Shown in pieces: positions 2,854-41,762 of a DNA stretch of 64,000 bases. The notes below the pieces were generated by a model, which was given only the letters and a program-made list of their open reading frames with translations, ran no database searches and was not told the DNA's origin. Location: the NCBI GenBank assembly GCA_919901855.1, contig CAKKQC010000040.1, positions 153,660 through 217,659 of the forward strand, read 5' to 3'. Made by a program: the position numbers and the translations under genes. Position 1 is the stretch's first letter. Each line of letters starts with the position of its first letter. The stretch comes from a bacterium (GTDB lineage Bacteria > Oederibacteriota > CAKKQC01).

Positions 2854-5800
2854 TTGAGCAGGCGGTGCGACTCGACTGACGGTTCGAACACAATCCGGGC
2901 GCTATCAATTCGCCTGGCCCTTCCTATGTTGCTCTGGGCTTCCGCGAGCGTCGCGGCCGACCCATTCGATCCCGTAGACGACCTGCGCATTTCCGGGAAC
3001 TGGGTGACCGCGCTCTCGACCACGGCCTGGTCCCAGCCGCACACGCTCGACGCCGTCGATGCCGTGGACTGGTACCGGGTCTGGCTGTCGGAAGGCGTCA
3101 GTTACGTCTTTTCTTCCACCTTCACCGGGGCGGCGGCGTCGATGGGAGCCGGCGACGTCCGGGCGTGGCTCTACGACGATCCGGTCAGCATGACCGCGGT
3201 GGGCAGTGACGACGACGGGGGCGGCAATTCGCAGTTCAACCTGTCGTACACGGCGATGGTGAGCGGCACGCACTATCTCGAGGTGCGCACCTACACCCTC
3301 GGGCAGACGTGGGCCGGTGCGGTCCGGGTTTTTACCGAGCCCGCCCGGCTCGCATCCAGCCTCTCCATGGTGCCTTACGTCGTCCCGGTGGGCGGATGGA
3401 CGGAGGTGCGACTAACGGTAACCAACACCGGCGGTACGGTGGCGAACGCGGTCCTGCCCGCCCTCCAGATCAACACGGGCGCGGCCGCGGTGGCATTGAT
3501 CGGCGGTCCCGTGCCCCCGGGGCCGATCCCGCTGTCGCCGGGGAACGCGGTCACGTTCGTGTGGACGTACAGCGGGAGCGGAGCGGGGATCGTCCGGTTC
3601 ACGGGGACGGCCGCGGGCACCGAGGCCGGGACCGGGGCGCCCAAGCTCGGAGCCGCGTCGGGCAACCTGATCGTGACCACGCTGGTGGGGGCCTTGTCGG
3701 TCGTGCCGGGGACTCCGGTCGGCGGCACGATGGCGCAGGTGATCTTGACCGTGACCAACCAGGGGGCGGCGGTCGCGAACGGGGTCACCGTGACGGTGTG
3801 GAACGATGCGGCGGATGGCGAATGGACATTCGCGAGCGGTCCCGTGCCGGCCGGCCCCCAGACGATCGGGCCGGGGGCCTCGCTCTCGTTCGCCTGGTCG
3901 TACAGCGTGGCGGGATGCTCGGCCGCCGTGTTCACGGCAACCGCTACCGGTTCGACCGGTGTGGCGATGGCCTCGCGGCTGGCCGTGCCGACGAGCGACG
4001 CCTTCGACCCCGCCGACGACGACGGGATGACGACGCCCACGGTGCTAACGCCCACGCTGGTGATGCAGTCGCACGGTCCGCACCGGCTGTGCGCCGGCGA
4101 TCTCGCGGACTGGTTCCAGATACCGCTGAATATCGGGGAGACCATCATCCTGACCTCCACGTACGCGGGAGCGGCGGTGTCGATCGGGGACGGAGACACC
4201 TACGGCGAGCTTTACAGCGATGCGGCCGGGACGAATGAAGTCGCCTACGACGACGACAGCGGCGACGCCAACCGCCAGTTCCGTGTCTCTTACATGGCCG
4301 AAGCGACGCAGACCTACTATCTCCGGGCTCGGACTTACACCGCGGGATCCCGTTGGCAGGGGTCGATCCGGTACTGGAAGATCGCGGCTCCGATCGCGCC
4401 GCCGGCGCCGGGCGTTACCGCCGTTCCGGGGCCGCATCAGGTCACGCTGTCCTGGCCGCTGCTCAACACCAGCCCGACCTCGGGACTGCCCATCAGCGCC
4501 TACCAGGTCATGCGGGCGACGGGGCCGCTGGGCCCGTTCTCGGTGCTCAAGTGGATCGGGGCTCCTGCGGGCGGGTTCTCCGGCACGGGGACCACGATCT
4601 TCGTCGATCCGTCGGCCAGCCCGGCGTACGGACATACCTGGTATTACCGCGTGAGGATTCGCGACAGCTTCCCCGCGTTCTCCGATGCGCTGGTTGTCTC
4701 GGCAAAGCCCGAGTGGTCCGGCTGGCACCGGTTCCGCGGCGATGCGTTCCTCTCCGGCCGGTCCCCGGTGTCCGTGCCGGACCGGCTCGAGTTCATGTGG
4801 AAGACCGCGGTCCTGCCGAACGGGCTCCACCAGGCGGTCCAGCACAAGGGGACCGTCTACCTCACCGATACGGGAGGCGCTCTGCGGCCCTACGACGCGT
4901 TCACGGGCGTGGCGGGGACGCCGGTGGCAAACAGCACGAACCCCATCTACATGGCGCCCATGGTCGGCCTCGACGAGATCATCTATTACTCGGCCATGGA
5001 CTCCAACGGTAAGACCGGGCTGTACGCCTGGAACATGCCGGGGCTCGGGGTGAAGTACGGGGCGATCATGACCTCGTCGAAGGGGTATGAGGGGGCCTGG
5101 ATGAACCTCTCGATGCTGGCGCCCGGCGAGGTCTTCACCGCCAACGACTACGGCGACTACTATCTGCTCGACGCGACTCCAGCGGTTGATTGGAAATACG
5201 TCGACATGCCTGGGCAGATCGGCGGGTCCGCCGTGCTCATGAACGGGGATGTGGTGTCGTTGCAGTGGACGACCGCCGGCGATGTGCTGTGCCTCACGCC
5301 GGAAGGCGATGTCCGGTGGACCTTCTCTATGGGGTTCTACCCTTCCGGCAAGTCCTACGAATCGAACCTCGCGGTCGGTCCCGATGGGACCGTTTTCGCC
5401 GCCACGGGCGACTCCAAGGCGGCTACGAATTACCTGTTTGCGATCCACCCGAAGACCGGAGCGCAGATCTGGACGGTGTCGGTGCCCGGGATGATAGGCG
5501 GGATCGCTTGTGGTCTGGACGGCTTCGTCTACCTGACGCGTACTGATGTCGGACAGGGATTCGTCCAGAAGGTGACTCCCGGGGGTAGCCTCCTCTGGAC
5601 GGTCACGCTGGGCGGGGGAGCCGGGGGAGAGGCGGCGCCGCCCGTCCTAACGGCGAACGATCGAATCCTGGTCGCCTACAAGGTGGGGACGACTGAGAAT
5701 GGCCTCGCGCTCCTGCGGGCCTCGGATGGCGGCTTCCTGTGGGACTGGCGGTCGGGCACCGCCACGGTGGCCAACGCTCTCGCCGCGCCGATCCTGACGC

Positions 5801-8800
5801 CCCAGGGCCGCGTGTATGCGTCTCTCGACAAGATCATGGCCTCGTTCGCGGTGCCGCCCGTCGTCTCCCTGACCAAGCAGGTGTCGGCGCCGGTGGCCGT
5901 GGCCGGAGACCAGTTGACCTACACGATCGCGTGGAGCAACGCGAGCGTCACCACCGCGACCAACGTCTGGATCTGGGACACGCTTCCGGGCTGGTGCGCG
6001 TACGCGAACCCGAGCCTCGCGGTCAGGGTGCCGGCGGCGGTGACCGTGAGCGCGCTGAGCGCGACCGGGCTGTCCGGGCCCTGGGCGGCAGGGGAGCCCG
6101 CCAACGGCGCGGTCGCGCCCCGGATCATGGAGTGGCTCGTCTCGAGCATTCCCCCGTTCACGAGCGGCTCGCTTTCGTACACCGTGAACCTGAGCCTCAC
6201 CATCACGGGTTCGCCGGCCCTGATTTCGAACCAGGCCAGCGGGACCTGGTTCTTCGGTTCCACGACCACGATGCAGTCGAGTGGGGTGGTCATGACGACG
6301 GCGTGGGGGAGCCCGGCTGTCGCCCTCAACGTGCGGCGTCCCGATCCCGTGTACGCCGCGGCCGGCGAAGTCCAGACCTGGCGGATCGACATGGGCAACA
6401 CCGCGGTGTCCGCGACGGCATTCAACCTCGTGCTCACGAGCCGCACCTTCAACGGCCGGGCCTACGAGGCGGGGAGCCTCTCGACGTGGGTGGGCGGGGT
6501 GGGGACGGTGACGTCTTCGTGGGCGACCGCAGGCGGGGGGCCGTGGACGCCGGGAGAGCCCGCCGGCGGGACGCAGGAGCCGCTCCTGCTGAGGTGGACC
6601 GTCGCGCAACTACTTCCCGGGATGAGCGGGTACGTACAGTGGCAGGTGCGCCCGGTGGCAACGGGGAGCTCCCGGCTGGGCGTCACGCTCTCGGCCACGT
6701 TCTCGTGCGATCCGTCGCTCGCCATCGGCCGGGCGGTGTCTCCCGACGACATCGAGCGCGGCGGTCGCGTCGATCTCCCCATGCAGTGGATCAGGCTGCA
6801 CGACGGGGCGTGGCCCCGCCACGGCACGCCCCAGAGCGGTCGGGCCGTCGCCGTGGACCCGGGCGGCAACGTGATCGCGGTCGGGTACGACGACCTCACG
6901 GCGTTCGGGATGAACCACGACTTCCTGATCCGGAAGTACGACCCGGCGGGGACCCTGATCTGGAGCCTGACGTACAACTTCAACGCCGCGGTGCCGAACA
7001 CGGACGAGGCGTTCGGGGTGGCGACGGACGCCACGGGGAACATCGTGGTGGCGGGGAACACGGTGCTGGCGAAGACGGACTGGCTGGTTCTGAAGCTCGA
7101 CCCGTCGGGGGCGATCCTGTGGACGCGGACGCTGAACGCGCTGGGGAACGGCGACGACTTCGTGGGCGGGTCGACGGGCACTAGCGGGTTCGGGAATCCC
7201 GTGGGCATCGACGCGAGCGGGAGCATCTACGTGGCGGGGACGGAGCGGAACGCGAGCTTCCAGAACGCGTGGCTGATCGCGAAGTACGACCCGGCGGGCA
7301 CGTTGCTCTGGACGAAGACGTGGAATGGAGCGGCGTCGGGAGGCAGTACCGCAAACGCGATTGCCGTGGATCCGGCCGGCAACTTCGTCGTGGCGGGCAC
7401 GGCCGGCTTCGGGGGATCGGGGACCGAACTGGTCCGCAAGTACGACTCCGGCGGGAACGAGGTCTGGACGACGTCGTGGACCAACCCGGCGGCGATGATG
7501 GGGCTGGGCGCCCTCGGGGTCGGTCTCGACCGGGACGGGAACGTGTTGGCGGCCTGTTTCGAGAGCCTCCAGTGCATGCAGGGGGACTGGAAGATCCGGA
7601 AGCTGGATCCGCTCGGGATCCCCCTGTGGGAGCGCGGATTCGATGCGGGGGGCGGATGCTCCGAGGACGAGCCGTACGGGGTCGCGGTCGACGGGGCCGG
7701 GAACTGGCTGGTGGGGGGGATGGCCAGGCCGCCATCCGTGCCGGGGTACTGGATGCTGCGCAAATATGATCCGGCCGGCAACCTGGTGGACGCGATCGCC
7801 CGGAACGATCTCACGGACTCTGGCGGGTTCCCCGGCACGCGCCTCCTGGGGGTGGCCGCCGCGGCGGGGAGCCAGGACGCCTGCCTCGCCGGGGACGAAC
7901 AGATGCTGGAGGGCAACTACGACATGGCGGTGGCCCGGTACGCGACGGCGCCGTTCAGCGCGCCGTCGCCTCCGGTCACGCTCACGGCGAACGCGACGGG
8001 GTTCGCGATCACCGTAGGCTGGTCGCAGGCTGGCGCCGGGACGAACCCGGTGGCGGGCTACCGGATCTACCGCCAGACCTGGCCGGGCGTGCTTTCGACG
8101 GCGGGGGTGCTGGTGGCCACCGTTGCGGGCGCGACGTCGACGTACTACCGGGACGCGTTCGTAGTGCCGGGCGTCCAGTATTCCTATCGCGTCCTCGCGG
8201 TCGATACCGCAGGCGTGCCGGGCTACCTCTCGCCCGAGGGGTGGGCGGCGATCACGGGGTCGCCCGCGTGCGTGCACAAGCAGGGCTCGCCGGCGGGGCC
8301 GATGTGCGTGGGTGCGGTGATGACCTACACGATCTCGTGGAGCAACGCCGGCGCGGTGACGGTGACCGGGCTCACGATCACGGACACCCTGCCGGGGGCG
8401 GTCGGGTATGTGGGGGCGAGTCTCGTGACGTGGATGCAAGCCGACGGGTCGGGGACGCCGGGGCTCTCGGCCTCGGCGTACGCGCCGTCGCTGGGCGGCC
8501 CGTGGACGCCCGGCCAACCCGCCAACGGGACCGTGGGCGTGGTCCTGCGGTGGGTCGTGAACCGGGTGGTGCCGGGGGCGTCCGGGTATCTCACGTTCCA
8601 GGCGGCCGTGCAGGACAGCGGGGCGCTGGGCGACGGGGCGTCGTTCGGAAACCAGGCGTCGTCCACGAGTTCGATCACGAGCGATCCGCTGATGACCGAG
8701 GCGGCGGCGAACACGGCCAGCCGGCCCCCGCTTCCCGTGTCGCTCTATCTCAGGAATCCGGACCCGCTCTATGCCTCCATCGGCGACGCGATCCAGTATG

Positions 8801-29800: not shown

Positions 29801-32800
29801 CGAACACGGGGGCCGCGGACGTCACCGGCGTCTATCCGATCCTGAGTCCGTCGTCAGGAATCGTCTCCGGCACGCTTCTGTCGCCCGTCGGGCCGGTTGC
29901 CGTCGCCGGCGGGGCGGCGCAGACCTTCGTGTGGACCTACACCGCGACGGCGAGCGGGTTCGTGTCCTTCGCCGGGAGCGCGGCGGGGGCTGACGAGAAC
30001 AGCGGTATGGCGGTCGGGACGGGAGCGAAGGTGACGCCCGCGGTACAGATCATGACGCCGGCGAACGTGTCGGCGGCGATTACGATATCTCCCGTCGGCG
30101 TGTGTGTCGGGGAGAGCTTCCAGGTCCGGCTGACCGTGTCGAACACGGGTGAGGTGGATGTCCTGTCGCTCGACGCCGGGGCTTTCGTGGTTTCCGGCTC
30201 CGGGGGAGTGGTCCTGGTCGGTGGGCCGTCGCCCACGCTGCCGTCCACGGTCGGCGGCGGGCTGACGCGTACGTTCACGTGGACGTTCACGGGAGGGGCT
30301 GCCGGAAGCGTCTGGTTCACGACGACGGCCACGGGGTTGGACGCGCTGACCTCCGCGGCTCTCTCGACCGGCCCGGTGACGTCGCCGGCGGAGGCGGTCG
30401 CGACCGGCGCGGTCCTGTCGGCGGCGGTGTCGTTCACGCCCGCGGTGGCCTCGGTCGGCCAGCCGGTTGCGGTCACGCTCACGGTCAGCAACACGGGAGA
30501 CACGGCGGCCACCGGGGTCGCGGTGAGCGCGACCACGGCCACGGGGGCGGGGCTCCTGAGCGCGGCGGTGCCGGCCAGCCAGGGCGTGCCGGCGGGCGGA
30601 TTCGTGACGTATGCGTGGACGTACACGGTCTCGGGCACGGCGCCCGGGCACATCTTCAGCATGACCGCCTCGGGCACGGCCTGCGGCGGGCTGTTCGTGG
30701 GCGCCCCCGCCTCGGGGATCCTGACCGTCCAGGCGGCGGCCGCGCTCTCGGGGACGCTGATCGTGACGACTCCGGCTATCGTCGAGGTGGGGCAGCTCAT
30801 CGTGCTCACGATGACGGTCACGAACACGGGGGCCGCGGACGCCAACGGCGTCTACCCGCTCATGAGCCCGTCCTCCGGCATCGTGTCCGGGACCCTCCTG
30901 TCGCCGACATCTCCGGTCGTCCTGGCCTCCAATGCCTCGCAGACGTTCGTGTGGACGTACACGACGACGGCTGCCGGGTCGGTGTTCTTCGACGGGCGCG
31001 CCGATGGGACGGACGCGAACAGCGGCTTCGCCGTGGGGACCGGTCCGATGCCGGTGCCGGCGACGCAGGTGCTGACGCCTCCGAGCCTGGCGGCCGCGGT
31101 CACGGTTGAGCCGGTCTCGGTCTGTTCCGGGCAGGACTTCCAGGTCCGGCTCACGATTACCAACTCGGGACAGGTGACCGCGAATGGCGTGGATGCGGGT
31201 GCCCTCGTGCTCTCGGGCGCGGGCGCGGCCCTCGTCGGCGGGCCGACACCCGCCCTGCCAATGACCTTCGCCTCGGGTGTGTCCCGGACATTCACCTGGA
31301 CGTTCACGGGTGCGGCTGCGGGGAGCGTCTGGTTCACGACCACGGTCTCGGGAACCGACGCGATCACGGCGGCGGGGCTGTCGACCGGCCCGGTGACTTC
31401 GGCGCCGGTCGCGGTTTCCACGCCGGCGATCCTGGTGGCGAGCGTCTCGGCGCCGACGACGGCGTGCACGAGCTCGGTGGTGACCGTAGTCCTGACGGTG
31501 ACGAATACGGGCGGCGTGGACGCGACGGTGGTGGCTCCCAGCGCGACGACGACATCCGGCTCCGGGTCGTTCGGCGCCCCGGCTCCCGCCAGCCAGACGG
31601 TGCCCGCAGGCACGATGCGGACCTTCTCGTGGGCCTATACGGTCGACACGGCGGGGTCGCACGTGTTCAGCGCGACGGCCAGCGGGTTGACGTGTGGATC
31701 GTCCGCGGTCTCGGGGGACGCGATGGGGACGCTGGCGGCGACCGCCGCGGCCTCGCTGTCGGGGACCCTGATCGTGACGACTCCGGTGCCGACCGAAACG
31801 GGCCAGATGATCGTGCTGACGATGACGGTCACGAACACGGGGATGGCTGTGGCGACGGGGGTCACGGGATCGCTGGTGCCCGGCGCGGCGTTGGGCGTGC
31901 TGGCAGGGCCGTTCCCGGCCGGGCCCGTCTCGCTGGCGTCGAGCACGTCGCAGACGTTCGTCTGGACCTACACGACGACGGGGGCCGGGGGCGTCAGCTT
32001 CACGGGTGGCGCGACGGGGACGGATGCCTGCGGGTCGGCGTTGACCATCGGCTCTCCGGCGACGCCTGCCGTCCAGATCCTGACGCTTCCGAGCCTGGAG
32101 GCCGCGGTGACGGTCGAGCCGATCTCCGCGTGCTCGGGGCAGTCCTTCCAGGTTCGCCTGACGATCACGAACTCGGGTGAGGTGACCGCGAACGGCGTGG
32201 ACGCGGGCGCCCTCGTGCTCTCGGGCGCGGGCGCGGCCCTCGTCGGCGGGCCGACGCCCGCTCTGCCGATGGCCATTGCCGGGGGGGTCTCCCGGACATT
32301 CACGTGGACTTACACAGGCGCGGCTGCGGGGAGCGTCTGGTTCACGACCACGGTCTCGGGGACCGATGCGCTCACGGCGGCGGGCCTGACGACCGGTCCG
32401 GTGACGTCGGTGCCCGTGACGATCTCCACGCCAGCGGTCCTTGTTTCGAGCGTCTCGGCTCCGCCGGCCGCCTGCACGGGTTCGGTCGTGACGGTGACGC
32501 TGACGGTGACCAACGCGGGCGGCGTGGACGCGATGGCGGTTTCGCCCAGCGCTACGACGACATCCGGATCGGGGCTGTTCGGCGCCCCGACTCCCGCCAG
32601 CCAGACGGTGCCCGCGGGCACGATGCGGACCTTCGCGTGGAGCTACACGGTAGGGACGGTGGGAGCGCACAGCTTCAGTGCCACGGCGAGCGGGCTGACC
32701 TGCGGCTCCTCGGCGGTGTCGGGCGCGGGAGCCGCGAGCCTGGCCGCGACCGCGGCCGCCGCGTTGTCGGGAACCCTGATCGTGACGACGCCGGTGCCGC

Positions 32801-35058
32801 TGACCGTGGGCCAGGTCGTCGTGATGACGCTGACGGTGACGAACACGGGGGCCACCGCGGCCACGGGCGTGACGGCCTCGGTCGTGCCCGGCGGGCCTTT
32901 CGGGATCCTGGGCGGGCCGTATCCTGCCGGGCCGGTCGGGATCGCTGGCGGCGGGGCCGCCCAGACGTTCATGTGGACCTATACGGCCACGGGCGCGGGC
33001 GGCGTGAACTTCACCGGGGGCGTGGTAGGGACGGACGCCTGCGGGTCGGCGTTGACCATCGGCGCTCCGGCGACGCCTGCCGTCCAGATCCTGACGCCCG
33101 CGAGCCTCGCTGCGGCGGTCACCGTGGCTCCCGTGGCCGTCTGCGGCGGCCAGATCCTCCAGGTGCGGCTGACGGTCACGAACTCCGGACAGGCGGGAGC
33201 GGTGGGGGTAGATGCGGGGCTCTTCGTGGTCTCCGGCGGCGGCACGGCGGCCCTGGCGGCCGGGCCGTCTCCGGCGCTGCCGGTGGCGCTCGCGGGCGGC
33301 TCATCGCGCACGTTCACATGGACGTACACGGGTGGAACCGCCGGGAGCGTGTGGTTCACGACGACGGTGACGGGGACTGATGCGGTCTCGGGCGCGGCCC
33401 TCTCCACCGGTCCCCGCGTGTCGAGCGCGGCCGTGATCAGCACGGGCGCCTCGCTTGATGCGAGTCTGTCGGCTCCCGTGGGAGCTTCGAACGGCCAGGT
33501 GGTTGCGGTGACCCTTACCCTCACCAACACGGGTGGCGTCGACGCCACCGGCGTCGCGCCCGTGATCGGAGTCGTGGCCGGAACCGGCACGTTCGGGGCG
33601 CCGTCGCCCGTGAGCCAGACCGTGCCCGCCGGAGCCATGCGGACGTTCTCGTGGAACTACACGGTGGGGGCGGTGGGGACGCACGCCTTCAGCGCGACCG
33701 CCAGCGGGCTGACCTGCACGTCCCTGCCCGTGTCCGCCTCGGCCGCCACGAGCCTCGCCGCGGTGGCCCCCGCCGCCCTCGCGGGCTCGCTCGTGGTGAC
33801 GACGCCCTCGCCGCGCACCGTCGGGGAGCTGATCGTGATCACGATGACCGTCACGAATACGGGCGGAGCCGGGGCGTCGGGCGTCACGCCGGTCCTGAGC
33901 CCGACCGCCGCTCTCGGGGTCCTGGGCGGCCCCGTGCCGGCCGGCCCGGTGGCGATCGCGGGCGGCGGGAGCGCCGTGACGTTCGTCTGGACCTACACCG
34001 TCACGGGGCCGGGCACGGTGTCGTTCAACGGCAGCGCCGCGGGGGCCGATGCCAACAGCGGGCTGGGCGTCTCGACTGGCGGACTCGCGACCGGCAACGT
34101 GATCGTGACCGCCGCGGGAGCCCTGGCGGTTACCTCGCTCCTGATCTCGCCCGCGCCGAGCGTGAACACGGGCGACGGATTGACGGTCACGCTTACGGTC
34201 CGCAATCCGGGAGGCAACCCCGTGAACCTGACCGGGGTGACGCGCACGACGGGCAATCCGGCCTCGTTCGGGGCGGCCTCGGCGCTCGCGCCGGCGGTGC
34301 CGGTTACGGTGAACGCGGGCGCGTCCACGGTATTCACCTGGAGCTACGTGACGACAGCTTGCGGATCAGGGAGCGTCTGGGTGGACGTGTCGGGCACCGA
34401 TGCGGTCACGGGACTGCCGGTGCCAGCCGTGACGGCCGGGAGCAACGTCGTGGGCGTGGCCGGCAACGCGGGGGCGGTGGTCGTGACGCCGGCCCAGGGC
34501 CGCTCTCCGGCGGGATCTGCGGTGGCGTTCACCGCGCTGGTGCTCGACAGCTGCTCCGGGGTGCCTAAGCCGGGGGTGCCGGTGCGGGTGACCGTGCTCG
34601 CGGGCGGCGGCACGGCCGTCCTCTCGTCGACGGTGACCGACAACTCCGGGCTGGTGACCGGGACCCTCAACCTGGGTACCGAGCCGGTTCGGAACGCGAT
34701 CCGGGTGGACGTGACCGCGGGGCCGGTCCAGCCGGGCGGGACGGGCTACGTCGACGGCACGGCCTCCACCACGGTCGCCGCCTTCCTGAACCGCAACTAC
34801 TTCAACCCGGCCGCGGGGGAGACCCTCCGGGTGCGCACGAGTGTCCCAGCGCCGATGCGGCTCACGGTGCGCGTGTTCAACGTGGCGGGCGAACTGGTAC
34901 GCAAGGTCGCCGACGCGGACGTCATGCCCGGAGTCACGAGCTGGGAGTGGGATGGACGGACGGCCCAGGGAGGCCCCGCCAGCAACGGCACCTACCTGAT
35001 CCAGATCGTGGCCGGGAACGAGGTCCGCATCCGGAAGGTGATCGTCTACCGGCGATAG
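2854..35058 (+). CDS. Giant exported multi-propeller FN3/CARDB protein, 10,734 aa, FlgD-like tail
   Basis: One uninterrupted frame of 32.2 kb. TTG 2854 is chosen because it gives a full signal peptide (basic n-region, hydrophobic LALPMLLWASASVA, likely cut near residue 35); ATG 2926 would leave almost no signal. Approximate domains by residue: PPC-like 36-163 and 380-511 flanking two CARDB; FN3 512-618; PQQ propeller 620-1003; two DUF11; SBBP propeller 1310-1703; FN3; two DUF11; SBBP 2116-2503; four FN3; Ycf48/BNR propeller 2906-3224; Kelch propellers 3430-3710, 3906-4195 and 4403-4700 separated by FN3 pairs; three FN3; PQQ 5006-5376; FN3; three DUF11-SBBP-FN3 cassettes 5475-7382; DUF11; DUF11 split by a Kelch propeller 7522-7930; DUF11; 22 CARDB-like 8059-10536; Big_1-like Ig; FlgD-like tail 10641-10734. 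No enzyme motif is visible. Probable role, inferred: a surface filament, adhesin or scaffold. The family of each propeller is judged by eye from repeat motifs. Confidence 0.9.
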   Translation: MSRRCDSTDGSNTIRALSIRLALPMLLWASASVAADPFDPVDDLRISGNWVTALSTTAWSQPHTLDAVDAVDWYRVWLSEGVSYVFSSTFTGAAASMGAGDVRAWLYDDPVSMTAVGSDDDGGGNSQFNLSYTAMVSGTHYLEVRTYTLGQTWAGAVRVFTEPARLASSLSMVPYVVPVGGWTEVRLTVTNTGGTVANAVLPALQINTGAAAVALIGGPVPPGPIPLSPGNAVTFVWTYSGSGAGIVRFTGTAAGTEAGTGAPKLGAASGNLIVTTLVGALSVVPGTPVGGTMAQVILTVTNQGAAVANGVTVTVWNDAADGEWTFASGPVPAGPQTIGPGASLSFAWSYSVAGCSAAVFTATATGSTGVAMASRLAVPTSDAFDPADDDGMTTPTVLTPTLVMQSHGPHRLCAGDLADWFQIPLNIGETIILTSTYAGAAVSIGDGDTYGELYSDAAGTNEVAYDDDSGDANRQFRVSYMAEATQTYYLRARTYTAGSRWQGSIRYWKIAAPIAPPAPGVTAVPGPHQVTLSWPLLNTSPTSGLPISAYQVMRATGPLGPFSVLKWIGAPAGGFSGTGTTIFVDPSASPAYGHTWYYRVRIRDSFPAFSDALVVSAKPEWSGWHRFRGDAFLSGRSPVSVPDRLEFMWKTAVLPNGLHQAVQHKGTVYLTDTGGALRPYDAFTGVAGTPVANSTNPIYMAPMVGLDEIIYYSAMDSNGKTGLYAWNMPGLGVKYGAIMTSSKGYEGAWMNLSMLAPGEVFTANDYGDYYLLDATPAVDWKYVDMPGQIGGSAVLMNGDVVSLQWTTAGDVLCLTPEGDVRWTFSMGFYPSGKSYESNLAVGPDGTVFAATGDSKAATNYLFAIHPKTGAQIWTVSVPGMIGGIACGLDGFVYLTRTDVGQGFVQKVTPGGSLLWTVTLGGGAGGEAAPPVLTANDRILVAYKVGTTENGLALLRASDGGFLWDWRSGTATVANALAAPILTPQGRVYASLDKIMASFAVPPVVSLTKQVSAPVAVAGDQLTYTIAWSNASVTTATNVWIWDTLPGWCAYANPSLAVRVPAAVTVSALSATGLSGPWAAGEPANGAVAPRIMEWLVSSIPPFTSGSLSYTVNLSLTITGSPALISNQASGTWFFGSTTTMQSSGVVMTTAWGSPAVALNVRRPDPVYAAAGEVQTWRIDMGNTAVSATAFNLVLTSRTFNGRAYEAGSLSTWVGGVGTVTSSWATAGGGPWTPGEPAGGTQEPLLLRWTVAQLLPGMSGYVQWQVRPVATGSSRLGVTLSATFSCDPSLAIGRAVSPDDIERGGRVDLPMQWIRLHDGAWPRHGTPQSGRAVAVDPGGNVIAVGYDDLTAFGMNHDFLIRKYDPAGTLIWSLTYNFNAAVPNTDEAFGVATDATGNIVVAGNTVLAKTDWLVLKLDPSGAILWTRTLNALGNGDDFVGGSTGTSGFGNPVGIDASGSIYVAGTERNASFQNAWLIAKYDPAGTLLWTKTWNGAASGGSTANAIAVDPAGNFVVAGTAGFGGSGTELVRKYDSGGNEVWTTSWTNPAAMMGLGALGVGLDRDGNVLAACFESLQCMQGDWKIRKLDPLGIPLWERGFDAGGGCSEDEPYGVAVDGAGNWLVGGMARPPSVPGYWMLRKYDPAGNLVDAIARNDLTDSGGFPGTRLLGVAAAAGSQDACLAGDEQMLEGNYDMAVARYATAPFSAPSPPVTLTANATGFAITVGWSQAGAGTNPVAGYRIYRQTWPGVLSTAGVLVATVAGATSTYYRDAFVVPGVQYSYRVLAVDTAGVPGYLSPEGWAAITGSPACVHKQGSPAGPMCVGAVMTYTISWSNAGAVTVTGLTITDTLPGAVGYVGASLVTWMQADGSGTPGLSASAYAPSLGGPWTPGQPANGTVGVVLRWVVNRVVPGASGYLTFQAAVQDSGALGDGASFGNQASSTSSITSDPLMTEAAANTASRPPLPVSLYLRNPDPLYASIGDAIQYALTVSNGSSVTVTNLAVMTRPGMFANRSYVTPSFSALILGSNVTSSAWGVTEFGPWIPGEPPDGTADPVYVRWTFDVLRPGGAGTIQFRARALAGGTTMLYGYAGATGDTGVGCRAGLPYTTTDTGERLFPPPLAWIRLTSTGAVNMGSGSVDVAYGVAVDASGGVVVAGAGDRSDIFQGKNWLVRKYDAAGNPGWTDNFDSGMGDDKAEAVAMDGVGNAYVAGVTGGSDWLVRKYGPGGGLLWNQTYNGPGSSMDEATSIAVDAMSGSVYVGGWQWTGGAAGYEWAVRKYDSGGGLVWMQSGNGPRANSEYLYGVAVDPWGDIVAGGHETNLSTGQDVSVAMWDATGSLLWSRSWAASGMSDDEARAVATDRNGNVYVAGISNPASAYNWLVQKYDNAGNLVWTRKYANPGNSNNCGAYGITVDDAGNVVVTGQVDYGMSTEDMWNWVTRKYDNAGNLIGVEEHTGIVPTPLGGVGGPHGKDGLNAVAPVPASQAVVVAGSEDVQGEVQNFAVAKYILTPWSPPQAPLNMTAAGGGLQAALSWTPAAAGSRPVSGYRIYRQTWGGVRPVVQTLLAEVNGPASGAFTDFAVTAATRVYYRILAVDDQGAESRLTDEVDVLPVVSLPPSAPPSLTALGQNQQVALNWAPSTQGTDPLAFYDIFRATCADCPYNIVGGVAATTTSTLDPGGLVNGTTYWYKVRAGSTVPDYSAFSMTASGTPLDENLNPPGCFTAAQRGTSNVIDLAWCFAPAGTHPATAYAIYRTTYAGPALGAVAVVDALTNAAVDRVPAPGTYWWHARAVGSLSDPSPLSGPIVIAGSPPGVPMNLTAIGQVAAIALAWDASVAGTYAVSGYFVYRGSFPGGESPAFIARLIGMYATAYTDTAILPGIMYYYTVNAYDALLPIPNESGASAEATAAALAPLVAGAGTWIEQWNPSRTYVPGSTFFLQDVASPSRKVGYAVGFNGTVLKTVDGGLDWKRLASFGAVTDLYAVAFSDTSTGVVAGGASGSGNYIWRTSDGGQSWVVTGSATQAVRALAFTTSWTGFAASLNGEVYRTDTAGASWTLLPTAVSENLNGISAVEVSPGVEHVWAVGAAGRVIKSVNGGAGWGTYVLGSGKADMEDVAFGGPDVGWIVGAPADAFMTNAGGDTAVEWVNMTVGGAAKYGVTFTDTVSGWITGSRSGVVDGIIKMTKNSGLTWADEATRSYLSISTGPRSFRQSAFAGVADGWAVGEKGIVVRRTQDDPPVPPLDLSARAGSDRVNLSWSEATPGTYPLSGYMVYRSTYTGGGYDRIQRLYDPLTTTFTDFGVTVSLRVYYVVRGYDTDGIESANSNEANAMPSGGLPNPPGAPSALTGKPMDAMARLVWRPSPVGTYPVSGYQVYRATYSGFALAGGTYIGRTWGLSATGYLDSPLVNATPYYFRVRALDDQATPNYSLPSGELFVLTFRPPLPNLVWTQGAPALFTHYMPAVAELDGYVYAVGDGTNWSQKTERYHPGTGVWTELGDLDSGRSGPGRFEVAALGGTLYALDPYGGSSVERFDPATGKWILTGVAIAGTRTRFDYAGDALGGSFYFFGGSMSILTDKQVDSFTVPAAYTAHPNWTFSRSGYDATTFGSRIYVTGGSEYTSLSRVEAYDPGAESWTMREPMPTGRYGLRTERLGGLIIAMGGMSCTGVVEAYDPKADIWYRGFKAMPVSGDNFGSVVVGGKVRAVGGVTSSSFNGEARILEAVGGPGRVGLQWEYQPGTWPIAQFRIWRATYSGGQNLLGAPQFPMAGTATATVDSAAVDGITYFYVMDAVDTRGNRSPMSPEVYAAAFVPPSAPASAVVSDAGDAYLEIQWSPSVPGSFPIDGYNVYRGGFPGGPYSLIASVSGAYATTYTDAGILNGFPRYYVIRARDSQPAPLPPALSGPSPEAWGTPAAPPLLGLEWRLRSKMAAARKGFALGLIDGKIYVAGGEGAMFGNDVPTVEVFDPFTNKWSPRSNLGFTSRKWLSSAVWGGRLYTFGGDIANLPQTTVEAYDPATDSWSAKFPLPRAREKTGAAQLGGLVYVTGGAPPGFMGNTWMDIYNPASDTWQAFPSDIPTARSYHISDVQDGRVWLVGHESMTLTPYDALDPATGTWRTYDDEGMLTPGGMTQHSHNFFGGNWQDKILIIGGTSGGPASPIVDVYYPRGRTMRRTGDLNVPRGLGRLVTTEVGKVYAVGGDMNPTTSDDCEEGRSLIVRNRNGNAIDLRWVHQKGTNSILNYQVFRATFCGGGTLYQRVAALDALNVPPATQTTSLYADLTVVPGTWYYYQVRITDNAGKSAITNEDWALAAVPPSAPTNLTVLTEGSRFLILSWAPSASGGTYGITRYAVYRSTGSDGPFMPAGTTLDAGTTAFIDMFLTDGVRYTYAVAAQDAADPANEGAWSATNSGEPYEPPAPFIVAWTALPSLNTARWGHGLAAWNNQLYAFGGDGGAGTLASMEVLSPLAFGSPWVPLAPSGVPFVARRLFGCTLRDGKFWVVGGNSGLSVTPITAMQVFDPSTTGWSDVVTAGFDPMEGFGMEADPVTGWLVAFDGYNGSGYSYELQYRNPVSSGWTVISNPMFGGWPARSRLGSATSGFSAFFFGGDNGSAQNAVQEYVFWRQDLVDHQWMPVATAGPAGATLVYRPYAIGGNGLIAAGTTPVMEYNPSKRTWATRAALPAPRTDARAVNMNFKLYVVGGRTAVGGAALASAFEGEPLHAVPGDDVVGLNWGVEAGTYPLASYKLYRSTSSPESWGGLGAPAYSFGPGTTSYTDAAVTNGNAYFYIGVADDVRGHQGLMWDVATLPISAPANLTAVAGSSAIALSWDPIANPDGENLIGYSVFRTTYAGVGLIDMPSASLYMAGMVSRNQTWFTDVGLTNGTKYFYVVRAISSQTFWGNPSNEAWATPAYIQPPGVPQDLVATPGLDQVVKLTWTASCAGGAAITGYRVWRTTMPATSPKVTGIQIASVILPQSATVFMMLVDQTASAAFGRTYYYALDALDENKPPTLSGESAVASAMPGAGYWRMARGDVEGTGRSQLADGLRTSLAVGWSIPTSGTVWGTPAVNAADGSLYVTDDGALGGFLYHIDATGGVLWSPALPVGGVGTVSSPSISYADEFGTVDRIYVGGRSGAAGYLYSFDNAGVLVWSRLLGGPVNASPLPLPGGGVIVGADNGVVRAYQRDGSIAWTANLPGAIVGAVGFVNDAIVVGCGDWNLYGLRPDDGLVLGSIALTGTPSGFSADPVRKHLYVATRGGRLHDVDVNVGPTIAWTGNAGGAFVGAPAFDQTTGNVFAACTDGLVYGFNVADPAGTFASEDTGAPILSSIAVAAKGRLYWTDEAGRAVEAAGPGVGLSVCAPAGAGPFGTASPALWQDGSGRGRVYAGSRSQAVHAFVDAPGRPQGLVATTLPGAVRLDWTVSVAGFYPVSGYTVWRATCAACPASWAGYTPDALSTTWADTTVAPATPYWYRLYAYDDSPYLNPSLAATVTGTSGGACAPSLTLKARNPEPLYVNCSEQQLWRVAFSNPGASTVFNLTITAKLPQLAERYYAVESFSATLTGGAAITASAWAQFAGYTPGEPTLGTTTDPLYLRWTVGALGPGRSGEVSFRTIAACNPPEALLEVMVSATMSCDPGGVSQFVVPYSDTATGKRIEPPLYALRLRSAPGMAATPFDMDTDSAGNVYVVGREASAAGDINGRICKFNPSVAAQLATTTYEGTAGGTGEALGVVVDAGGNPIVAGYENMTLGGYNWRIRRYDPSLTAVLASTTYDAPNGGSDRAIAIALDASGNVFVGGKEDGPGGQDEWSLRMYNPALSVLLGATIWGGADALDDQVESLALDASGNVYAAGLETTVAAGNNWRIRKYGPGLATLLASTNFDGSAGGNDEAREILVDAAGFVYVAGWELAAAGGNNWLIRKYDASLSTVLAIASYNAPTNGSDRLYGAALDRAGNLVLAGKEDGPGGVDNWSLRRYDNALNFLDGLTHDGIAADEDNLMAVRPFGSGTVYVTGLETVRGGESQAAVARYVLGSWYPPAASIGLTATAGLSLVTLAWTPAVPGTRSVSAYRIYRQTFAGVIPGEGGFLAQVDGATVSAYSDSTVAGGTTYFYRVLVVDLAGAASVPSMESAATPLAACVPNLTLKVRNPEPLYVNGGEVQLWRIAFSNSGAQTVFNLTVTTATGGFFSQTYSAGPSLSVTVTGGGSLASAAWSSDGIAWTPGECSGGCGGPLQLRWVVSPLGPGRSGELSFRTTMLGGGEQAVDVTVSATMSCDPAGLAGAVLSYSDTATGKRIEPPLMALRSYDGPASGVDIAHSAATDAAGNVYVAGREAGLVGLANWRVRRYDPELSAVLSSTDFDGPGSNSEAAYDVAVDGAGNVLVAGSEFDFAGGGNWRIRRYDPTLTALLSSAVYNGPGNTNDSAYGLAIDGAGNVVVAGYETGSVGGTNWMVRKYDATLGTLIAATDYNGPGNAGDFAYSVAVDASGNVVVAGSETGTVGGTNWSVRKYDPMLAVLLGSTDYDGPAGGSDIARRLVVDGAGNVVVVGREAGSAGGVNWRIRRYDPSLTVLLSTTDYNGPGNLSDDAWTVALDGVGNLVVAGSEWGAVGANNWRIRKYDSALNLIDSQAHDGLVAGGTEVAGYRIAVVGSATVYVPGQEDVRDEGTNFMIARYELASFFPPATPAGLTASGYVGYVGLQWTPAAAGTRAVSGYRVFRQTFAGVQGSGLLVDLANVTTSTYNDASAIPGTPYFYRVLAVDWMGAESGLSMEATGSPLAVCVPSLTLKARNPEPLYVSAGEQQLWRIAFSNSSVQTVYNLTITTQAGSFGERTYVPASFSVTVAGATVTVAHTTNMAAAWAQVEPPAPQTDPLYLRWVISSLGPSQSGELSYRTTAIAGLEMAYATAVTATMACDAGGLSGVSLSYSDTATGKRIAPPLMALRTYNGPVSAGDYGNAVAVSPAGDVFVAARESGLAGGFNWRIRSYDATLGTLLASTDYNGPANVSDETTGIAVDAAGNVVVAGYETGLVGGGNWRIRKYDATLTVLLASTDYDGPGSGTDLANGVVVDAAGGIVVVGLERGSAGSDNWRIRRYDATLSTLLAATDYDGPANGADAALAVARDPAGGVVVVGREDGSAGGYNWRVRRYDVTLSTLLATTDYNGAVGNVDIATAVAVDRDGRIFVAGSEWTPGGGDNTRVRCYDSSLQFLKASAMFDSPITALDTAAGASLDSSGNLVLAGYEVGAGSTYDWWVRKLDNALNPVGAKISHDGLLAGYDILRAVAANGTASVYVTGVETVRDENSNAAVARYELPAFYPPAAPAGLTASGYPGYIGLQWTPAAVGTRAVSGYRFFRQTWAGVTEGSYLGQVSDGTTSTFQDATVVGGVQYFYRVLAVDWMGVESAISMEATATACPGLLPLVTMEQAPASPGIGDLVTYRIIVTNPPGGATVTNVTVFDTLSPVIAGPAAVVRPGQVAVFSPVAGGTLFRTVGVPLSPLSPGATFTYTVTGRVAAVCGVTTVANVAFVETSGLCGGGAMLSGTASFTVNPAAASFAVAQTQVPASPGIGATVTYQMVVTNTGAATLLDVLVVDTLTAVVVGVTSAQPAGFGPVVAGVAGSASTYTFSGTRLTWTTKPPMPGSLSGLGAAAINESLYVAGGTSGGAPLASAYRYDLSTDSWAPIAPLPTGRTGVTLAAVGGTVYAFGGFDGGSYLQEVQAYDPATDTWTLRNNAMPTARNGMAVAVVGGNVYLIDGFQSGSPQDAVEVYDPVANTWAVKAPDPDPRTGAGAGVAGGLIYVFGGTDSGGYTALTEVFDPVANTWSTKASLPMARGEIAGVSLNGRVYAVGGVDGGGYGPAVVEYDPANDRWVAQPNMATGRGSLASTAFAGRIAAVGGFSGVTALKTLELGAPGFGPGAVLTFTITGQVGVVCGTTGVSSTAFATGSTACAELDQFGGVSGFVLAPPPVPVLSVVKAHAPASPLPGTAVTYTTVVTNAGASTITALVVTDTLAAGLTFTGQSTSAGLAWNGATTGVIAWSGTVTLAPGASVTVILDATVACAAGTISSTSWARGTRGCVWGEAASAPDAFTVVSPGALAAAVSAPAIVSVGQIFAVTLTATNTGGAAVGTLTATAFVGPGVAAVLGPVPAGYGVLAPGLGDTFAWTVTATAAGPVTFTLTAAGFACGTTTVLAASTVVTTVQTPPALAVHVAAFPDPVVQASTFLVTVTVTNTGQAGASGLVFDAFAQAGAGGASLSSAPVLPGALAGGAAVTLTWTFTGSTIGLVAFTATVSGVDVNSGAMVAAARDTSVPVTVTSPSSLVAAIYASRTSVSVGQVIELSLTVTNTGGVAATNVAAAAWQSGGAGTATLSPAAPVLVPSIATNAGALYTWSVTATGAGTLCLSATATADGPIVSGASSVCIGVETPASLAATATFLPATACVFQSALFVLDVANAGQAASSGTTVNLWPSGGAAGYVTMGPNPAGPIAIPGGASVSFTWTVMGTSAGTLSLTATASGADVNTGAAVVTAPAAAGPVTFSDPADLSPGLTVAGVASVGQVVPLSFSLRNVGGTDATGVTPSATTTSGSGLLGPMVPASQDVPVGATRLFAFDYTVETPGVHVFSITATGLTCGTATTSAYITGSLTAEMPAVLSATAIVTTPATVTVGEVVVVTMTVTNTGEASATGAAANLLAAGAAGLLGGPYPAGPVAIAGAASQTFVWTYTTTAAGAVTFTATAAGADANSGVVTAVGPLSIPGVMVLTPAGLSAAVSVSPAAVCSSQTFQVRLTITNSGMAGATGVDAGAFVVSGGGAATLVGGPTPALPTGLAGGLSRVFTWTFTGSSAGAVWFTTTVSGTDSVNGAALSTGPVTSAAEAVATGAVLAAALSFTPAVASVDQVVAVVLTVSNTGDTAALGVGASATTVTGAGLMGSAVPASQGVPAGGFVTFAWTYTASGTAPSHVFSVTASGTACGGLVAMAATTGTLPVETAAALSGTLIVTTSAIVEVGQLIVLTMTVTNTGAADVTGVYPILSPSSGIVSGTLLSPVGPVAVAGGAAQTFVWTYTATASGFVSFAGSAAGADENSGMAVGTGAKVTPAVQIMTPANVSAAITISPVGVCVGESFQVRLTVSNTGEVDVLSLDAGAFVVSGSGGVVLVGGPSPTLPSTVGGGLTRTFTWTFTGGAAGSVWFTTTATGLDALTSAALSTGPVTSPAEAVATGAVLSAAVSFTPAVASVGQPVAVTLTVSNTGDTAATGVAVSATTATGAGLLSAAVPASQGVPAGGFVTYAWTYTVSGTAPGHIFSMTASGTACGGLFVGAPASGILTVQAAAALSGTLIVTTPAIVEVGQLIVLTMTVTNTGAADANGVYPLMSPSSGIVSGTLLSPTSPVVLASNASQTFVWTYTTTAAGSVFFDGRADGTDANSGFAVGTGPMPVPATQVLTPPSLAAAVTVEPVSVCSGQDFQVRLTITNSGQVTANGVDAGALVLSGAGAALVGGPTPALPMTFASGVSRTFTWTFTGAAAGSVWFTTTVSGTDAITAAGLSTGPVTSAPVAVSTPAILVASVSAPTTACTSSVVTVVLTVTNTGGVDATVVAPSATTTSGSGSFGAPAPASQTVPAGTMRTFSWAYTVDTAGSHVFSATASGLTCGSSAVSGDAMGTLAATAAASLSGTLIVTTPVPTETGQMIVLTMTVTNTGMAVATGVTGSLVPGAALGVLAGPFPAGPVSLASSTSQTFVWTYTTTGAGGVSFTGGATGTDACGSALTIGSPATPAVQILTLPSLEAAVTVEPISACSGQSFQVRLTITNSGEVTANGVDAGALVLSGAGAALVGGPTPALPMAIAGGVSRTFTWTYTGAAAGSVWFTTTVSGTDALTAAGLTTGPVTSVPVTISTPAVLVSSVSAPPAACTGSVVTVTLTVTNAGGVDAMAVSPSATTTSGSGLFGAPTPASQTVPAGTMRTFAWSYTVGTVGAHSFSATASGLTCGSSAVSGAGAASLAATAAAALSGTLIVTTPVPLTVGQVVVMTLTVTNTGATAATGVTASVVPGGPFGILGGPYPAGPVGIAGGGAAQTFMWTYTATGAGGVNFTGGVVGTDACGSALTIGAPATPAVQILTPASLAAAVTVAPVAVCGGQILQVRLTVTNSGQAGAVGVDAGLFVVSGGGTAALAAGPSPALPVALAGGSSRTFTWTYTGGTAGSVWFTTTVTGTDAVSGAALSTGPRVSSAAVISTGASLDASLSAPVGASNGQVVAVTLTLTNTGGVDATGVAPVIGVVAGTGTFGAPSPVSQTVPAGAMRTFSWNYTVGAVGTHAFSATASGLTCTSLPVSASAATSLAAVAPAALAGSLVVTTPSPRTVGELIVITMTVTNTGGAGASGVTPVLSPTAALGVLGGPVPAGPVAIAGGGSAVTFVWTYTVTGPGTVSFNGSAAGADANSGLGVSTGGLATGNVIVTAAGALAVTSLLISPAPSVNTGDGLTVTLTVRNPGGNPVNLTGVTRTTGNPASFGAASALAPAVPVTVNAGASTVFTWSYVTTACGSGSVWVDVSGTDAVTGLPVPAVTAGSNVVGVAGNAGAVVVTPAQGRSPAGSAVAFTALVLDSCSGVPKPGVPVRVTVLAGGGTAVLSSTVTDNSGLVTGTLNLGTEPVRNAIRVDVTAGPVQPGGTGYVDGTASTTVAAFLNRNYFNPAAGETLRVRTSVPAPMRLTVRVFNVAGELVRKVADADVMPGVTSWEWDGRTAQGGPASNGTYLIQIVAGNEVRIRKVIVYRR
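19276..25010 (+). repeat. Three tandem 1.91 kb DUF11-SBBP propeller-FN3 cassettes
   Basis: Within the giant gene, cassettes begin at 19276, 21187 and 23101 (periods 1911 and 1914 bp). Each starts with a cysteine and the words LTLK(A/V)RNPEPLYV, goes on through ATGKRI(E/A)PPL into a propeller of roughly 57-residue blades (key words YDGP, VAVDAAGNVVVAG, NWRIRKYD), then an FN3 domain with SGYR(I/V/F)(Y/F)RQT. Periods are multiples of three, so the frame is kept. The pattern shows whole-cassette duplication. Confidence 0.85.
25651..26480 (+). other. Kelch propeller inserted inside a DUF11 domain (part of giant gene)
   Basis: A DUF11-like domain starts near 25417 and runs to the words STYTFSGT. 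A run of about six Kelch-type blades follows (YVAGGTSGG, YAFGGFDGG, YVFGGTDSG, YAVGGVDGG, with conserved DPATDTW-like ends). After it, GPGAVLTFTITGQ resumes the DUF11 fold at about 26490. The uninterrupted version of this junction is visible in the upstream gene around 290-345, where GPNASLTFTITGQ follows directly on the YEWSAG strand. Confidence 0.7.
28372..34460 (+). repeat. About 1.01 kb tandem super-repeat of CARDB triads
   Basis: The last 18 of the 22 CARDB-like domains follow a three-type rotation: type A (short SATT/GLTCG words), type B (GTLIVTTP, MTVTNTG) and type C (CSGQ-FQVRLTITNSG, VDAG). Type A units begin at 28372, 29386, 30406, 31423, 32431 and 33445, a period of 1008-1020 bp. 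Long stretches are nearly identical at DNA level between copies, for example around 31207 and 32215, and around 29755 and 30772. This means recent duplication or gene conversion. The final domain before the Ig/FlgD tail is divergent. Confidence 0.85.
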
Positions 35059-37144: not shown

Positions 37145-37477
37145 ATGGGACCTGAACCGATCGACGCGTATCTGAGTTCTGTCCGGGAGATTCCGGAACT
37201 GGCACCGGATGATGCCCGGTCGCTGGGCTGGCTGTCATGGTCGGGCGACTGGGCTGCCCGCCAGGAGCTCATCGAGAGGCATCTCTGGCTCGTGGTCGAA
37301 ATGGCCGAGCGTTTGCGCCCTGGAGGCTCTGCACAGGCGGACTTGATCGTGGATGGGAATGTCGCGTTGGTACGGGCGGCCGAAGTCTACCGTCCCTGGC
37401 AGGACGGCGAGTTCGGCGCCTACGCGGAGGAGTATCTCCTTCGCGAGATTGGAAAGGAGGTGCTCCCGGCGGCCTGA
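37145..37477 (+). CDS. Sigma-70-like protein limited to regions 1.2 and 2
   Basis: 110 residues. IDAYLSSVREIPELAPDDA (6-24) matches region 1.2 of primary-type sigma factors. RQELIERHLWLVVEMAERL (39-57) matches region 2.1. DLIVDGNVALVRAAEVY (66-82) matches the core-binding region 2.2. EFGAYAEEYLLREI (89-102) matches regions 2.3/2.4. Then it stops: there are no regions 3 or 4. In the -10 melting segment F90 and Y93 are kept, but the usual Trp-Trp pair is Glu-Tyr. GGAAGA lies 4 bases before ATG 37145. The other two frames after the stop show no region 3/4, so it is not a simple frameshift. It may bind RNA polymerase core and compete with, or modulate, other sigma factors. It could also be a decaying fragment. 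Confidence 0.7.
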   Translation: MGPEPIDAYLSSVREIPELAPDDARSLGWLSWSGDWAARQELIERHLWLVVEMAERLRPGGSAQADLIVDGNVALVRAAEVYRPWQDGEFGAYAEEYLLREIGKEVLPAA

Positions 37478-37610
37478 CAAACGAGAATCCGGGGGGAAGG
37501 CGGCGGCGGAACTGGCACAAGCCCTCCCTAAAGGCAGTTCGGCTCCAAGATCGAGCCGTCCGCCTCTCCCTCCGGGTCTTCGTCAGGTTGAAAAGGGAGC
37601 TTGGCTCGCA

Positions 37611-39924: not shown

Positions 39925-40935
39925 TTGATCCAGGAAGCCATCCGTATCCTCGTCGAAGGCAAGCCCCTGACCGCGGCCCAGTCCGAGGCCGCCATGGGGG
40001 AGATCATGGATGGGACCGTCACACCCGCCCAGATCGCAGGGCTGGCGGTGGCGTTGCGAATGCGGGGGGAGACCGTCGACGAGGTGGCCGGTTTCGCCCG
40101 GGCGATGCGCCGGCGGGCGGCAAAGATAGCTGCCCCGAAGGGCGTGATCGCCGACACGTGCGGCACCGGCGGGGACGGAATGCACACGCTCAACATCTCC
40201 ACCGCGGCCGCCCTGGTGGCGGCCGGGGCCGGGGTGACCATGGCGAAGCACGGCAACCGCGCCATGTCGAGCCGTTGCGGGAGCGCGGACGTGCTGGGCG
40301 CGCTCGGGGTCAAGGTCGACGCGGACCCGTCCGCGGTCGAGCGTTGCCTGCTCGAGGCGGGCGTCGCCTTCTGCTTCGCCCAGGTGTTCCATCCCGCGAT
40401 GAAGCACGCCGGCCCCCCGCGCCGCGAGCTGGGGGTCCGCACGATATTCAACCTGCTGGGGCCGCTCACGAACCCGGCCGGGGCGTCGGCCCAGCTTATC
40501 GGCGTCGCGGCCGGGGAACTGCTCGCGCTCGAGGCGGGCGCCCTCGCCGCGCTCGGCACCGGCCATTCGCTCGTCGTGCACGGGCGGGACGGCATCGACG
40601 AGCTGACGACCACCGCGCCGACCAAGGCGATCGAGGTGCGAGGTCATCGCGTCGTGCGCCGGCTGACGCTGGATGCCCGCGTGTTCGGTTTCCGCCGCGT
40701 CAGGATCAGCGATCTCGCGGGGGGATCCCCGGAGGAGAACGCGGCCGCCATCACGGGGGTTCTCGAGGGGCAGAAGGGCGCCTTCCGGGATGTGACCATC
40801 TATAACGCGGGTTTCGTATGCTGGCTCGCGGGGCTGGCTCGCACCCCCAGGCTCGGGATGGAAGCCGCCAGGAAATCGATCGATGCGGGGGCTGCCAGGG
40901 CCAAGCTCCGGCAGCTTCAGGAGGCGACGCGATGA
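39925..40935 (+). CDS. trpD: Anthranilate phosphoribosyltransferase
   Basis: 336 residues; transfers the phosphoribosyl group of PRPP to anthranilate, the second step of tryptophan synthesis in the cytoplasm. The glycine-rich PRPP loop GTGGDG (80-85), KHGNR (108-112), the anthranilate-site segment FHPAMKHAGPPRRELGVRT and the metal-binding Asp-Glu pair (225-226, in DGIDELT) are all present. The TTG start at 39925 gives MIQEAIRILVEGKPL, which matches the usual N-terminus, and GAGG lies 7 bases before it. There is no TrpG fusion. It is the first gene of the trp cluster and overlaps trpC by ATGA. Confidence 0.96.
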   Translation: MIQEAIRILVEGKPLTAAQSEAAMGEIMDGTVTPAQIAGLAVALRMRGETVDEVAGFARAMRRRAAKIAAPKGVIADTCGTGGDGMHTLNISTAAALVAAGAGVTMAKHGNRAMSSRCGSADVLGALGVKVDADPSAVERCLLEAGVAFCFAQVFHPAMKHAGPPRRELGVRTIFNLLGPLTNPAGASAQLIGVAAGELLALEAGALAALGTGHSLVVHGRDGIDELTTTAPTKAIEVRGHRVVRRLTLDARVFGFRRVRISDLAGGSPEENAAAITGVLEGQKGAFRDVTIYNAGFVCWLAGLARTPRLGMEAARKSIDAGAARAKLRQLQEATR

Positions 40936-41726: not shown

Positions 41727-41762
41727 AGACGGCGTGGACGCCGGGAAGGTTCCGGTGACGGC

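Follow-up and report, generated by a model that had tools for sequence, protein, structure and literature searches.

The locus described here raises the question of whether a single frame of 32.2 kb is a genuine gene and, if so, how its product would leave the cell and what it would do there. The reading that we prefer, with a probability of about 0.6, is that the product is a very large type IX-like secretion cargo, displayed on the cell surface as a multivalent binding fibre.

One intact gene of 32 kb

The window, i.e. the whole 64-kb stretch of DNA analysed (C40:153660-217659), belongs to a 4.68-Mb draft genome in 91 contigs, which is 93% complete, and does not contain any N. The gene, called here G3, is a single uninterrupted frame (2854..35058, forward strand) with a TTG start and one stop, encoding 10,734 amino acids with a calculated mass of 1,087 kDa (1.09 MDa) and a pI of 4.7; the stop-to-stop frame around it comprises 10,753 codons. 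In every 200-aa slice of G3 the third codon position has the highest GC content of the three (0.81-0.94), thus there is no sign of a frameshift, and large antisense frames over this region are a by-product of 70% GC. The one intact frame described in the sequence-only reading is therefore borne out by the translation, the absence of N and the even coding signal. The start codon and the Sec signal peptide appear plausible, as judged by eye.

One might suspect that such a long frame is an assembly chimera, especially in a draft genome whose neighbouring giant gene (G2) bears an exact repeat that short-read assemblers can mishandle (see below). However, no stop or N occurs across 32 kb, the coding signal is even, and the order of domains is identical in an independent genome. 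Given this coding signal and the order conserved in a sister genus, we judged a chimera unlikely to the point of being barely credible.

Order of domains in G3

Domain searches with Pfam HMMs, proposed earlier as a check, returned all the expected families above their cut-offs (DUF11, fn3, SBBP, PSII_BNR/Ycf48, Kelch_1 and others, PQQ_2, CARDB and FlgD_ig). Since Pfam tables give the best stretch only, HMMs trained on the repeats of G3 itself (own-repeat HMMs) were also used; these gave no matches on 20 locally shuffled copies of G3. The features found are as follows.

2854..35058, +, giant exported protein G3 (translation, codon-position GC, own-repeat HMMs against shuffled copies)
2854..2958, +, putative Sec signal peptide (TTG start, ...RLALPMLLWASASVAA-DP; inspection by eye)
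3340..3951, +, two N-terminal CARDB domains with weak PPC-like domains on both sides (own-repeat HMMs; PPC 18.4 bits, under its cut-off)
4726..5853, +, PQQ-type propeller 1, aa ~625-1000 (weak: a single blade found marginally by the own-repeat HMM; position and similarity to G1 and to the sister genus genome G001)
6784..7923, +, SBBP propeller 1, aa 1311-1690 (seven own-HMM blade matches)
9160..10335, +, SBBP propeller 2, aa 2103-2494 (Pfam; seven blade matches)
11566..12525, +, Ycf48/BNR propeller, aa 2905-3224 (PSII_BNR 32.2 bits, cut-off 27; five blade matches)
13141..13962, +, Kelch propeller 1, aa 3430-3703 (Pfam, own-repeat HMMs)
14551..15447, +, Kelch propeller 2, aa 3900-4198 (Pfam, own-repeat HMMs)
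16051..16938, +, Kelch propeller 3, aa 4400-4695 (Pfam, own-repeat HMMs)
17860..18969, +, PQQ propeller 2, aa 5003-5372 (PQQ_2 32.8 bits, cut-off 27.6; five blade matches)
19762..20862, +, SBBP propeller 3, aa 5637-6003 (own-repeat HMMs; module alignment)
21661..22788, +, SBBP propeller 4, aa 6270-6645 (seven blade matches; module alignment)
23566..24687, +, SBBP propeller 5, aa 6905-7278 (own-repeat HMMs; AlphaFold2 closed ring)
25396..25653, +, N-terminal part of a DUF11 domain interrupted by Kelch4 (HMM positions 2-84 of 127, 80.6 bits)
25660..26433, +, Kelch propeller 4 (Kelch4), aa 7603-7860, inserted in DUF11 (own-repeat HMM; AlphaFold2 closed six-bladed ring)
26437..26628, +, C-terminal part of the DUF11 domain, after Kelch4 (HMM positions 79-124 of 127, 41.4 bits)
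27031..34398, +, stalk of 22 CARDB domains, aa 8060-10515 (Pfam, own-repeat HMMs)
34474..34782, +, Big_1-like Ig domain just ahead of the tail (weak: 18.5 bits, cut-off 34.9)
34822..35055, +, C-terminal FlgD_ig / T9SS type A-like sorting domain (FlgD_ig 42.4 bits, cut-off 27; TIGR04183 24.0, cut-off 23)

The own-repeat HMMs counted 12 propellers (2 PQQ, 5 SBBP, 1 Ycf48 and 4 Kelch), 19 FN3 domains and the 22 CARDB domains of the stalk. The numbers of propellers and of stalk domains agree with those read earlier from the letters, with the first PQQ propeller recovered weakly, and the FlgD-like tail assigned in the same reading exceeds its FlgD_ig cut-off. We consider PQQ propeller 1 the least secure of the 12, on the weak match given above. 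The propellers had been described as separated by FN3 and DUF11 domains; such spacers are indeed present within the string, except that Kelch4 sits inside a DUF11 domain. The N-terminal CARDB and PPC-like domains before the first propeller and the Big_1-like domain before the tail had gone unmentioned.

Predicted structures of the propellers

AlphaFold2 was run on two of the 12 propeller sites, Kelch4 and SBBP propeller 5 (SBBP5), and both gave the closed propellers that had been expected from structure prediction. Kelch4, modelled as aa 7515-7935 with two paralogous rows, forms a closed six-bladed ring with pLDDT mostly above 90. It matches a human Kelch domain (PDB 5YY8) at Z 39.8, with 274 residues aligned to an rmsd of 1.7 A, and 8PJR with a TM score of 0.88 by target length; designed six-bladed Kelch proteins also match. 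SBBP5 was modelled within one DUF11-SBBP-FN3 module (aa 6749-7383) together with nine further modules from G2 and G3, and is likewise a closed ring (pLDDT 85, pTM 0.83). That it has seven blades follows from its seven SBBP repeat units and from its match to the propeller of CylK (PDB 7ROO), the nearest solved fold, with Z 47, rmsd 2.3 A over 359 residues and 21% identity. Kelch1-3 are probably propellers too according to the HMMs, and so are SBBP1-4 according to the HMMs and alignment.

CylK is an enzyme, and its resemblance to SBBP5 leads to the possibility that the propellers of G3 are enzymes, so that the protein would be a chain of catalysts or a weapon for predation, a role suggested for some giants of Omnitrophota (PMC10066038). 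The presence of lactonase-type propellers in the paralogue G2 would fit this idea. However, CylK contains a further domain, and the alignment to SBBP5 covers only the propeller. Moreover, no known catalytic domain was found in G3 by Pfam, or by NCBIfam in its N-terminal 3,200 and C-terminal 3,434 aa, and the NCBIfam models of YjhT mutarotase and N-acetylneuraminate epimerase scored far under their cut-offs. An enzymatic role thus appears very unlikely.

A propeller inserted into a DUF11 domain

The position of Kelch4 was analysed with an HMM of 127 positions built from uninterrupted DUF11 domains. Sequences flanking the propeller match positions 2-84 and 79-124 of this model, which indicates that Kelch4 sits in a loop of one DUF11 domain. 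G2 and the sister genus each have two examples of the same arrangement, and a 1,970-aa frame on contig C6 has one; at full length it was seen in no other of the 192 genomes searched, among the matches listed. In G2, a different insert divides three further DUF11 domains near the same point. The putative insertion of Kelch4 rests on the HMM split and its recurrence, the DUF11 flanks being of low confidence in the AlphaFold2 model. As whole propellers have entered the DUF11 loop repeatedly, insertion there may be how such proteins acquire further heads. In the reading preferred here, DUF11 domains serve as spacers and have also accepted whole domains, for example a Kelch propeller, into a loop.

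The giant gene cluster and its relatives

G3 is the largest of three giant genes (G1, G2 and G3) that form one cluster on the same strand, with G1 and G2 spanning C40:103127-151738, upstream of the window and in tandem with G3. The product of G1 has at most 6,366 aa, with two PQQ-type propellers recognized by eye, a DUF11/CARDB stalk and a FlgD tail. G2 is a frame of 9,672 codons, or ~9.5 k aa if its signal-like segment marks the start; it contains at least six SBBP blocks as well as Kelch, PQQ and lactonase-type propellers (~13 propellers by eye), and has no FlgD tail. The exact repeat mentioned above lies in G2 at C40:131913-133389, as a 1,477-nt match at a 1,470-nt period, which makes it a perfect tandem copy of a lactonase-propeller and DUF11 unit; it may have arisen by a very recent duplication or else stem from the assembly.

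Two genes with related tails stand on either side of G3 in the window.

1..2796, +, upstream gene of 956 aa that starts before the window, DUF11/CARDB domains and FlgD_ig tail as in G3 (Pfam; 57 nt before G3)
37353..39626, +, downstream gene of 757 aa, Big_1-like domain and FlgD_ig tail (Pfam)

Two short genes located after G2 and before the 956-aa gene (C40:151767-153313) encode exported proteins of 193 and 309 aa, neither of which matches any Pfam family over cut-off; the end of the former resembles the C-terminus of G2 (FTVTINAVAP / FQVTVTAVLP). A 541-aa protein with SBBP repeats and a FlgD_ig tail, encoded at 46964-48589 of the window, is a miniature of the G3 plan. On contig C21 (105075-114836; positions 5075-14836 of locus L134), a 3,254-aa frame carries ~27 FN3 domains and a FlgD-like tail at its end. 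The genes trpE/trpG and trpD/C/F/A flank the giant-gene region on the same strand, ~96 kb apart (window 39925-44394; C40:95374-97508); trpB was not found. No Rfam family reached its gathering score in the window.

A search for the same architecture in related genomes, suggested in the sequence-only reading, revealed it in the sister genus, represented by a genome of the same family (G001) in 670 contigs, some of which end inside homologues. Over ~2,550 aa, with the order of domains kept, identity to G3 is 43-50%. One locus (L032) aligns to residues 3113-4432 of G3 at ~50.5% identity, in two pieces of 875 and 453 aa split by a stop codon, and another (L011) to residues 4627-5851 at 43% identity with matching domain order. 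These alignments indicate that the orders Ycf48-FN3-FN3-Kelch-FN3-FN3-Kelch and Kelch-FN3x3-PQQ-FN3-DUF11-SBBP are conserved between the genera. The same genome encodes, on contig C80 (L037 1309-11226), a 3,306-aa frame in which four Kelch propellers alternate with CARDB domains and are followed by a DUF11/CARDB stalk. In another family of the phylum (genome G020), a 1,642-aa frame has three Kelch propellers and a weak match to the T9SS tail. A search of named genomes with a 1,200-aa tile returned no relative.

The mixed string of propellers had been called unusual, and in the open-access literature searched we found no direct precedent for propeller-string surface proteins. Within its own lineage this description holds less well, as G3 is the largest of three giants, its domain order is kept in the sister genus, and shorter propeller strings exist elsewhere in the phylum. 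On these alignments, G3 is an extreme of a local protein style rather than a one-off. Several genomes of the phylum (G003, G006, G017, G027 and others) have other frames, of 5,000-7,200 aa, with matches to the PorU model in its sorting-domain-like C-terminal region, and judging from such sequences giants may be common in this phylum.

Export route

The tail of G3 exceeds the cut-off of the T9SS type A sorting-domain model (TIGR04183) by one bit and is under that of Pfam Por_Secre_tail (PF18962; 17.5 vs 27). FlgD_ig has 52 matches genome-wide at E <= 0.001. For seven of them, on contig C40, the end of the frame was checked, and each is within ~60 nt of the stop. We rejected the possibility that the tail is a plain flagellar FlgD, because such domains end many long exported frames and this one passes the T9SS tail cut-off.

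SprA was detected in the genome of G3 with 268.5 bits (TIGR04189, cut-off 200) in part of a frame at C23:70116-73514, and SprA matches are present in 40 of the 45 genomes of the phylum; a 2,138-aa frame of a relative is SprA with 228.5 bits. A protein of the PorV/PorQ family is encoded on C40 at 42510-43541 (147.6 bits, cut-off 90; the PorV equivalog model gave 52.3 vs 250). At the level of these model matches, a translocon and a shuttle-like protein are shown to be encoded in the genome of G3, and export of G3 appears well supported. SprA_N (PF14349) and Peptidase_C25 gave no match in this genome, in searches without a positive control, and a conclusion that T9SS is missing was rejected when the full SprA model later found SprA, the first negative having been misleading. 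PorU had no match over cut-off in the 45 genomes, the listed matches below it being mostly to the C-terminal domain, and GldM had none in the same genomes, with no control genome matched either. Given the PorU and GldM results, T9SS may be incomplete or divergent here.

T9SS genes were reported in the FCB phyla and to be absent elsewhere (PMC11285876). RpoB of this bacterium has at most 55% identity to the named genomes found, in a collection that may leave out records very near this genome. The RpoB tree groups it with FCPU426 and Firestonebacteria at 98% SH-aLRT, though on long branches, outside the cluster of Fibrobacterota, Zixibacteria, KSB1 and Ignavibacteriota. If this placement holds, SprA in this lineage would extend the range of T9SS beyond FCB.

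The presence of SprA also brings to mind a moving gliding adhesin carried by the T9SS motor, since SprB, the protein known for this role, is a giant T9SS cargo as well (PMC9950754). However, the tail of G3 is type A-like, and the type B model TIGR04131 had no match in the C-terminal 3,434 aa (NCBIfam, E <= 0.01). Moreover, no PorP/SprF gene adjoins G3, whose neighbours encode a Nramp transporter downstream and the DUF11/FlgD_ig protein upstream, and GldM was not matched, though in that search without a working control. Judged by its tail and its neighbours, G3 is not SprB, and motor-driven movement seems highly improbable; by analogy, it may be a static counterpart of SprB in how it works.

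Proposed function

In the surface fibre that we favour, the putative Sec signal peptide would direct G3 into the periplasm, and recognition of the C-terminal Ig-like tail would allow the chain to cross the outer membrane through SprA. The tail and the CARDB stalk would stay at the cell, with the propeller string extending outwards, and the propellers, which belong to four sequence families, could serve as numerous heads that recognize glycans or proteins, either on surfaces or on nearby cells. Propellers often act as recognition modules, and from this analogy we infer that those of G3 bind as adhesive heads. A long stalk with 12 such heads, drawn from four families, most plausibly represents a multivalent adhesin or a fibre for recognition. 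A fibre of propellers on an Ig-like stalk ahead of a sorting tail had been proposed from the letters; its export side is strengthened by the TIGR04183 tail, SprA (268 vs 200) and the PorV-family protein, and binding by the heads is a prediction.

It is conceivable that the same export ends differently, with G3 released as an extracellular matrix or scaffold in which the propellers have a structural role or keep partner proteins assembled. Cargo with a type A tail may be anchored or released to the medium (PMC12618676), PorU lacks a match over cut-off, and several genes for exported partners adjoin G3. On the other hand, 22 Ig-like stalk domains beside the tail suggest display away from the cell, and Pfam detected no cohesin- or dockerin-like pairing domain in G3. 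We regard release into a matrix as unlikely; like motor-driven gliding and enzyme activity, it is less supported than the adhesin reading.

If G3 is indeed such a surface-displayed fibre, a wider picture may be drawn, which we offer tentatively and consider doubtful as a whole. A candidate phylum outside FCB would possess a type IX-like system that is based on SprA and lacks the usual sortase and motor, and would use it to build a coat of megadalton propeller fibres, with heads swapped as whole domains by tandem growth and DUF11-loop insertion. If true, cells of this phylum would bear a modular, evolvable recognition coat.

Comparison with known systems

The gliding adhesin SprB of Flavobacterium johnsoniae, of 6,497 aa (PMC9950754), is comparable to G3 in its giant size, its repeats and its T9SS tail at the C-terminus, and in the surface location and SprA-type export that are predicted for G3. 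G3 differs from it in being 1.65 times longer, in its type A-like instead of type B tail, in its 12 propellers of four families and in the lack of an adjacent PorP/SprF gene. PorZ of Porphyromonas gingivalis, a T9SS cargo with two propellers and a C-terminal domain for which glycan binding was proposed (PMC5121618), shares with G3 the beta-propellers and the C-terminal Ig-like domain, and is located on the surface, as predicted for G3. However, the ~776 aa of PorZ comprise two propellers and lack a stalk, whereas G3 has 12 and a stalk, and the PorZ model NF052228 did not match the N-terminal 3,200 or the C-terminal 3,434 aa of G3.

The cluster of giant genes resembles, in gene arrangement and size, Giant1-5 of Apilactobacillus kunkeei, a bacterium of a different phylum, in which consecutive genes encode extracellular proteins of 3,000-8,000 aa (PMC12863079). 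Frames longer than 20 kb, with proposed roles in adhesion or predation, were described in uncultured bacteria among Omnitrophota giants (PMC10066038) and other huge bacterial proteins (PMC11573180). DUF11-containing proteins, like G3, are among them. Unlike in G3, few domains are annotated in the giants of Omnitrophota, which often contain transmembrane helices (PMC10066038), and the word "propeller" is absent from the main text of both papers. G3 links such giants to the T9SS translocon, in a lineage that RpoB places outside the phyla with reported T9SS (PMC11285876).

Many giant bacterial proteins consist of one repeat type or of few recognizable domains. Nearly all of the 1.09-MDa G3 is readable as known folds, so that its export route and the binding by individual heads are open to piecewise tests.
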